From Desulfuromonadaceae bacterium (GTDB taxonomy: Bacteria; Desulfobacterota; Desulfuromonadia; Desulfuromonadales; JAAYDE01), in assembly GCA_012512925.1 (NCBI GenBank), contig JAAZDE010000023.1:1-35909 (forward strand): a stretch of 35,909 nt of DNA, read 5' to 3'. The notes beneath the pieces are model-generated. The model ran no database searches. It was not told where the DNA came from and saw nothing but the letters and a program-made list of their open reading frames with translations. The position numbers and the translations under genes were made by a program. Positions 34,492 through 35,909 of this stretch are shown here, piece after piece; the stretch's first letter is position 1, and each line of letters opens with the position of its first letter.

Positions 34492-35457
34492 TCAATAGTT
34501 CAGTCCCACCTTCTTGCGCACCTTGGCCATGGTCTTGCGGGCGACATGACGGGCCTTTTCAGAGCCCTGGGCGAGAATGCGCCGGATGCCGTCCTTGTCA
34601 GCCATCAGTTCGCGGCGTTTTTCCGTGAAAGGGGCGAAGAAGTCCCGCACCGTTTCAAAAAGTTCCTCCTTGACCTCGCCGTAGCCCATGCCGCCGGTCC
34701 GGTAGCGGCGGCGCAGAGTTTCCTGCCCCTCCTTGTCGAGAAACAACCGGTAAATTTGAAAAAGGTTGCATCTGTCCGGGTCTTTCGGTTCCTCCACCGG
34801 AGTGGAGTCGGTGACGATGCGCATGATCTGCTTGCGCAGCGCCTTGTCATCCAGGAACAGATCGATGGTGTTGCCGTAGCTCTTGCTCATCTTCTGGCCG
34901 TCGAGGCCGGGGACGGTGGCCACCTCCTCGTCGATATCCGGCTCCGGCAGGGTGAAGACCTCGCCGTATTCGTTGTTGAACTTGATGGCGATGTCGCGGG
35001 TCACCTCGACGTGCTGTTTCTGGTCCTTGCCAACCGGCACGATCTGGCTCTGGAACATCAGGATGTCGGCGCTCATCAGCACCGGGTAGGCAAACAGGCC
35101 GTGGTTGGCGGCGATTCCCTTGGCGACTTTGTCCTTGTAGCTGTGGCAGCGCTCCAGCAGCCCCATCGGCGTGAAGTTGGAGAGCACCCAGGTCAGCTCC
35201 TGGATTTCAGGGAGGTCCGACTGCACCCAGAAGATCGATTTTTCCGGGTCCATGCCCAGGGCCAGGAAGTTGGCGGCCGCCTCCAGGGTGCCCTGGGCCA
35301 GCGCCTTGCCGTCGGCAAGGCTGGTCATGGCGTGGTAGTTGGCGATAAAGCAGAACAGCTCCGCTTTTTCCTGGTAGTCGATCATCTTCTTCATCATGCC
35401 GAAGTAGTTGCCGAGGTGCAGGGAACCGGAAGGTTGAATGCCGGACAGGACTCTCAT
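34492..35457 (-). CDS. trpS: Tryptophanyl-tRNA synthetase
   Basis: VLSGIQPSGSLHLGNYFGMMKKM (HIGH-like), GQKMSKSYGNTIDLF (KMSKS), 321 aa. AGAGAGG upstream of the ATG. Confidence 0.97.
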   Translation of the reverse strand: MRVLSGIQPSGSLHLGNYFGMMKKMIDYQEKAELFCFIANYHAMTSLADGKALAQGTLEAAANFLALGMDPEKSIFWVQSDLPEIQELTWVLSNFTPMGLLERCHSYKDKVAKGIAANHGLFAYPVLMSADILMFQSQIVPVGKDQKQHVEVTRDIAIKFNNEYGEVFTLPEPDIDEEVATVPGLDGQKMSKSYGNTIDLFLDDKALRKQIMRIVTDSTPVEEPKDPDRCNLFQIYRLFLDKEGQETLRRRYRTGGMGYGEVKEELFETVRDFFAPFTEKRRELMADKDGIRRILAQGSEKARHVARKTMAKVRKKVGLNY

Positions 35458-35508: not shown

Positions 35509-35549
35509 AAATAAAAGAGCCGTGGATGCTGATATCGCCCACGGCTCTT
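35509..35549 (-). terminator. Rho-independent terminator/attenuator upstream of trpS
   Basis: On the - strand: AAGAGCCGTGG (35549-35539), 13-nt loop, CCACGGCTCTT (35525-35515), then TTATTT. Confidence 0.85.
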
Positions 35550-35686
35550 GATTCTGCATTTTTTTGGTTGCCGCGGACCTCGCGGTCCGAAGCGCCCACC
35601 ACTGGTCAACGTTCCGCAACCGCTCTGAGTTCAGGGGAGCGACGCCACCAGTTGGTTTCATTTTTCAGTTTATTGAAGTCTTTCAT
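35515..35686 (-). promoter_or_regulatory. Putative ribosome-mediated Trp attenuator controlling trpS
   Basis: Trp-Trp leader ORF, protector hairpin CGGACC-GCGA-GGTCCG (35589-35574), alternative pairing GCGGUU (35623-35618)/GACCGC (35587-35582), antiterminator GUCCGCGGC (35578-35570)/GCCGUGGGC (35545-35537), and the terminator hairpin. Confidence 0.8.
35606..35686 (-). CDS. Trp-rich leader peptide MKDFNKLKNETNWWRRSPELRAVAER
   Basis: 27-codon ORF (including stop) with tandem TGG TGG (35650-35645). ATG overlaps the lon TGA. Followed by alternative hairpins and a terminator upstream of trpS. Too short for the supplied ORF track. Confidence 0.8.
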   Translation of the reverse strand: MKDFNKLKNETNWWRRSPELRAVAER

Positions 35687-35909
35687 AATTTGAGAAAATT
35701 ATCAGGTCCATTTTTTTTCGTCAACGGCTTTTTCGTTTTTGCGCCTCTCGCCTTGGCGAAGGCGACCTTGTAGACGTCGTCGTACTCCTTTGCGAAATGA
35801 ACCTCCAGGCCCTCTCTCAGGTAGTCGGGGAGCTCCTCGAAATCCTTGCGGTTTCCCTCCGGAAAGATGAGGATTTTGAGGCCGATACGGCGGGCGGCGA
35901 TGGTCTTCT
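35683..35909 (-). CDS. lon: Lon protease, C-terminal fragment (5' part outside window)
   Basis: Reverse-strand translation ...KTIAARRIGLKILIFPEGNRKDFEELPDYLREGLEVHFAKEYDDVYKVAFAKARGAKTKKPLTKKNGPDNFLKL*, a Lon P-domain C-terminus. Partial, absent from the ORF track. Confidence 0.9.
   Translation of the reverse strand, partial: KTIAARRIGLKILIFPEGNRKDFEELPDYLREGLEVHFAKEYDDVYKVAFAKARGAKTKKPLTKKNGPDNFLKL
35696..35724 (-). promoter_or_regulatory. Predicted promoter for the trp leader/trpS, inside the 3' end of lon
   Basis: On the - strand: TTGACG (35724-35719), exactly 17-nt spacer, TAATTT (35701-35696). Leader ATG starts at 35686. Confidence 0.55.

Follow-up and report, generated by a model that had tools for sequence, protein, structure and literature searches.

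A candidate tryptophan-codon transcription attenuator before trpS in a Desulfuromonas-related order of anaerobes

The gap between lon and trpS in the window (the whole 35,909-nt stretch of DNA that was analysed) was read as a ribosome-mediated Trp transcription attenuator of trpS, with a three-hairpin relay like that of the his operon, and this reading is considered probable (about 0.85) from the sequence and from modelled RNA folds. Control of trpS by a Trp-codon attenuator had been proposed in a first-pass annotation of this DNA, and that core reading gained good support from conservation of the two Trp codons (WW) and their geometry in relatives and from folds constrained by a ribosome footprint. 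If true, a shortage of tryptophan would be answered at the level of tRNA charging in this lineage.

The following mechanism is strongly suggested by the anatomy. Transcription would start a few bases 5' of the leader ATG and the leader would be translated right behind RNA polymerase. With ample charged tRNA-Trp, both Trp codons would be passed by the ribosome, a protector hairpin of segments 3 and 4 would form, and the terminator would stop transcription before trpS. With no ribosome on the leader, segments 1 and 2 would form a hairpin of their own, again leading to the protector and to termination. When charged tRNA-Trp is scarce, a ribosome stalled on TGGTGG would cover segment 1, leaving segment 2 to pair with segment 3 and open the protector; the 5' arm of the terminator would then be taken up by pairing with segment 4, and transcription would continue into trpS.

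The lon-trpS junction

All features described here lie on the minus strand. The putatively controlled gene, trpS (34492-35457), encodes a tryptophanyl-tRNA synthetase of 321 aa (Pfam PF00579, tRNA-synt_1b, E 4e-59), and the gene upstream of the leader is the C-terminus of Lon (Pfam Lon_C, E 7e-11). The gap between them contains an 81-nt leader ORF (MKDFNKLKNETNWWRRSPELRAVAER*, 35686-35606) without a Shine-Dalgarno site, in which tandem Trp codons (TGGTGG, 35650-35645) form the proposed stall site. The Trp-Trp leader peptide and terminator that the first-pass annotation had placed before trpS are both present, with the protector and terminator 3' of the ORF. The sequence ATGA at 35683-35686, seen directly, overlaps the lon stop codon TGA with the leader ATG; lon readthrough transcripts might couple leader translation by way of this overlap. 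Short ORFs such as the trpS leader may escape annotation in this lineage.

A -35 element (TTGACG, 35719-35724) was predicted inside the 3' end of lon and a -10 element (TAATTT, 35696-35701) downstream of it, with a spacer of 17 (rarely 18) nt that is conserved in loci with the leader. The promoter consensus at WW leaders was TTGAC(G/C)-N17-TAnnnT, with a spacer of 18 in locus L010, and the leader ATG lay 7-10 nt beyond the -10 box in every WW leader found. Transcription is expected to start near 35689, ~3 nt 5' of the leader ATG, and a start at the usual distance from the -10 box would leave a 5' UTR of about 1-4 nt. Because the ATG sits so close to the -10 box, translation of the leader is predicted to take place on a nearly leaderless RNA, without a Shine-Dalgarno site. 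Neither the terminator nor the promoter of the leader was reported by a simple scanner for such elements, presumably due to the interrupted stem and weak -10 box, and the evidence for the promoter is therefore its conservation. The pattern of promoter, ATG and TGGTGG gave one match in this 2.6-Mb genome, at trpS. Over 136 genomes of the order, the promoter-WW pattern was matched in 46, mostly at trpS, and a reversed control pattern gave 5 matches.

Downstream of the ORF, the protector hairpin (segments 3:4, CGGACC-GCGA-GGUCCG) occupies 35589-35574, followed by the terminator hairpin (segments 5:6, 35549-35515, -20.6 kcal/mol), 57 nt before the trpS ATG, and its U tract (UUUUAUUU, 35509-35516). 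The intrinsic terminator between leader ORF and trpS has its counterpart in relatives, where a comparable hairpin and U-rich tract were found, and a hairpin was assigned at the protector place in 37 of the 39 leaders scored; in the other two (L007 and L029) the terminator call fell on the protector. The 251-nt leader region folded 2.8 sd below dinucleotide shuffles, with none of 200 shuffles as stable. Rfam covariance models run on both strands detected no T-box, Trp leader or other family and returned only two chance-level microRNA/snoRNA matches below the gathering score, and a T-box, an Rfam Trp leader or another known RNA family was set aside as the identity of the element.

Alternative pairings under a ribosome footprint

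Nascent RNA was folded with the expected ribosome footprint masked, the size of the footprint being assumed. In MFE folds of the state without a ribosome, a 1:2 hairpin that includes the Trp codons was obtained (35598-35656), and in the nascent RNA of the window the protector had a probability of 0.98 and the antiterminator of 0.02. The shorter helix CGCUC/GAGCG drawn for this step in the first-pass annotation had a probability of ~0 in every fold and gives way to this longer pairing. With the ribosome on the Trp codons, segment 2 (35606-35627, including GCGGUU at 35623-35618) paired with segment 3 at a probability of 0.94. In the same state segment 4 (GUCCGCGGC, 35570-35578), the 5' arm of the antiterminator, formed 9 bp with segment 5 (GCCGUGGGC, 35537-35545), which serves as the 3' arm of the antiterminator and is part of the 5' arm of the terminator; the probability was 0.96-1.0 at RNA lengths of 150-160, before the terminator 3' arm exists. 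The antiterminator was favoured by 8.2 kcal/mol in the stalled state at this stage. Both the 2:3 pairing and the antiterminator of the first-pass annotation were supported by these folds, and the comparison of masked and unmasked RNA that it had suggested moved the window from the protector (98%) to the antiterminator (96-100%) when the Trp codons were covered. Shuffling of the sequence that separates the stall site from the protector lowered the antiterminator of the window from 9.0 to 2.9 bp. When the complete leader was folded at equilibrium, the terminator was favoured in every state, so antitermination would have to be kinetic.

The same procedure was applied across loci with a crude model (assumed footprint, equilibrium pairing at one length), which gave family means for the antiterminator of 5.3 bp in the stalled state versus 2.6 bp without a ribosome (33 loci), and of 2.9 bp in the stalled state with the post-stall segment shuffled. 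With this simple model a clear stall-dependent gain of the antiterminator was seen in only 17 of the 33 relatives. A further step of the first-pass annotation, in which a ribosome at the leader stop codon restores termination, came out ambiguous in the window (protector 0.83 versus 4.6 bp of antiterminator). It fails in family f4a (L031, L033, L034, L039 and L044), where the stop abuts the protector and a ribosome resting on it would open that hairpin.

Covariation in the switching helices was weak and is suggestive at best. Of the columns of the antiterminator helix, the five central ones pair in each of the 32 loci scored and the outer ones less often, and in the window's own family the helix is kept through G-C to C-G and U-G to U-A changes. 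Several swap tests were run on these GC-rich, partly palindromic arms: swapping across families gave p = 0.03 (4:5) and 0.05 (2:3) by duplex energy, and p = 0.15 for 4:5 by pair counts. These figures bear on the compensatory changes for which the first-pass annotation had proposed to search.

Occurrence among trpS loci and rival explanations

A search of 98 genomes of the order found TrpS in 93, this genome included, and 87 distinct trpS loci with enough upstream sequence were evaluated, among them the window; named relatives in the collection comprise Desulfuromonadales, Desulfuromonas and Pelobacter records. The TrpS of the window is 91% identical to that in the same genus and 76-86% identical to that in most other genomes of the order. 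The complete set of a promoter, a short WW- or WWW-bearing ORF, a protector and a terminator was present in 35 of the 87 loci (the window being one), 12 were decayed and 40 had no leader, where intact and decayed classes were assigned by reading and L003 (WWCW) and L005 (CWRWW) were counted as intact. Conserved WW codons in relatives, another check put forward in the first-pass annotation, were accordingly found as WW or WWW with conserved geometry in those 35 loci. In the leaders measured, WW lay 30-45 nt 3' of the leader ATG, and the leader peptides were highly divergent between loci except for the Trp run, mostly with Arg directly after it. A lon match was found upstream in 19 of the intact loci and none was detected in 16, some of the upstream stretches being short, so that lon may be missed; the leader appears to be independent of its lon neighbourhood. 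On a quick TrpS tree, intact leaders fell on both sides of the root, and 9 to 13 changes were needed depending on how decayed loci were counted. This distribution suits an old feature with repeated loss, on a tree whose root is the midpoint only and many of whose forks are weak.

Taken together, the loci offer a phylogenetic series in which attenuators range from intact to decayed. The leader has a single Trp codon in L008 and L036 and lacks Trp in L041 (MKLSG), and in L040 the frame misses the Trp codons, possibly by a sequencing error in an A run. L028, L035, L053 and L047 have lost the Trp leader but retain the promoter near trpS; two of them, L035 and L053, also keep a terminator-like hairpin ~10-40 nt after the predicted start. 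Genus g16 (L011, L016, L018 and L020) lacks the leader and has a conserved small ORF (MTVAELKQAVLALSRE...) in the lon-trpS gap.

Outside the order, short near-leaderless WWW leaders (WWWR/WWWH) with a terminator were found in families f56 and f71 of the phylum, 6-11 nt after a TAnnnT box, before an apparent trpE (L226, L228, L229 and L231) or trpD (L225), both genes being recognised by eye from translated sequence. Other phylum-wide matches of the promoter-WW pattern outside the order were mostly out of frame or inside ordinary genes and were discarded, only those before trpE/trpD being kept. A WWW variant of the promoter pattern gave no match in sister orders of the class, and no WW leader was found in the upstream sequence read for trpE of the window's own genome (L203). 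We tentatively suggest, at somewhat less than even odds, that an ancient near-leaderless Trp-attenuator module of the phylum became attached to different genes by lineage (trpS in this order, trpE/trpD elsewhere) and decayed repeatedly, leaving promoter and terminator remnants; in this order, uncharged tRNA-Trp would then raise its own synthetase, with trpE of the present genome lacking such a leader.

Three other explanations were weighed against attenuation. The hairpin could be the terminator of lon only, the ORF with its two Trp codons a chance frame, and trpS transcribed from a promoter of its own; the start of the ORF at the lon stop without a Shine-Dalgarno site would suit this, as would the absence of the leader from 40 of the 87 evaluable loci. 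It is nevertheless very improbable, since leader and terminator stay with trpS in 16 of the 35 intact loci without a lon match upstream, WW is held in frame and at much the same spacing from a conserved promoter in peptides that otherwise diverge, and the pattern is rare in controls.

That divergence outside the Trp run also argues against a shared protein function, and with it against the proposal of a trans function for the terminated leader RNA or for the peptide in place of trpS attenuation. A near-leaderless terminated RNA does resemble trpL of Sinorhizobium (PMC7298713), but the pairing logic in cis suffices, and a trans role is regarded as very improbable. The least probable explanation is that termination is relieved by another signal, such as a general slowing of translation or a leader-binding protein, with the Trp codons not acting as sensor. 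A few decayed loci (L008, L036 and L041), in which promoter and terminator survive beside a single Trp codon or no Trp codon, are compatible with it, whereas the peptide of intact loci is conserved in its Trp run, which is placed just 5' of segments 1 and 2.

Comparison with known systems

In the trp attenuator of E. coli and the his attenuator of Salmonella, stalling of the ribosome at sensor codons selects between alternative hairpins. The likeness to the Salmonella his leader lies in three hairpins with two shifted pairings (general knowledge); the present element differs from both in having a synthetase gene as its apparent target, a nearly leaderless ORF and an unrelated sequence. Ribosome-mediated attenuation of an auxiliary trpS of Streptomyces has reportedly been shown experimentally. 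A candidate leader attenuator was predicted before trpS2 of Streptomyces avermitilis (PMC1262725), and trpL2 before trpS of S. lividans was found by RNA-seq to be transcribed leaderless (PMC8079986), so that the Streptomyces trpS leaders likewise have a Trp-containing leader ORF before trpS. The S. lividans trpL2 (MMTRTCTQLWRAA), from the Actinobacteria, contains a single Trp codon and lacks a U-rich terminator tract; leaders in the window's order carry two or three Trp codons together with a U tract and a predicted three-hairpin relay. In Caulobacter crescentus, of the Alphaproteobacteria, a ribosome profiling study describes a small leader CDS on the trpS mRNA (PMC4117421), which is alike in being a small CDS before trpS. 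The first-pass annotation had supposed a Trp leader for trpS to be uncommon and perhaps undescribed in this lineage. In general this needs amending, given these three cases (PMC1262725, PMC8079986, PMC4117421); for this order, no report of a Trp leader before trpS was found among open-licence papers.

A likeness in transcript form is also seen with trpL (rnTrpL) of Sinorhizobium meliloti, which controls trpE(G). Its RNA starts directly at the ATG of a short ORF carrying consecutive Trp codons and is terminated if Trp is available, and trans functions of rnTrpL and of the peptide peTrpL have been proposed (PMC7298713). A near-leaderless Trp leader, predicted in the present case, is common to both, with trpE(G) as the target there and trpS as the apparent target here. 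On the present reading, control of an aminoacyl-tRNA synthetase by a leader peptide would extend to these anaerobic relatives of Desulfuromonas. Switches of this kind are known; the one considered here occurs across many families of one order, for which no earlier description was found.
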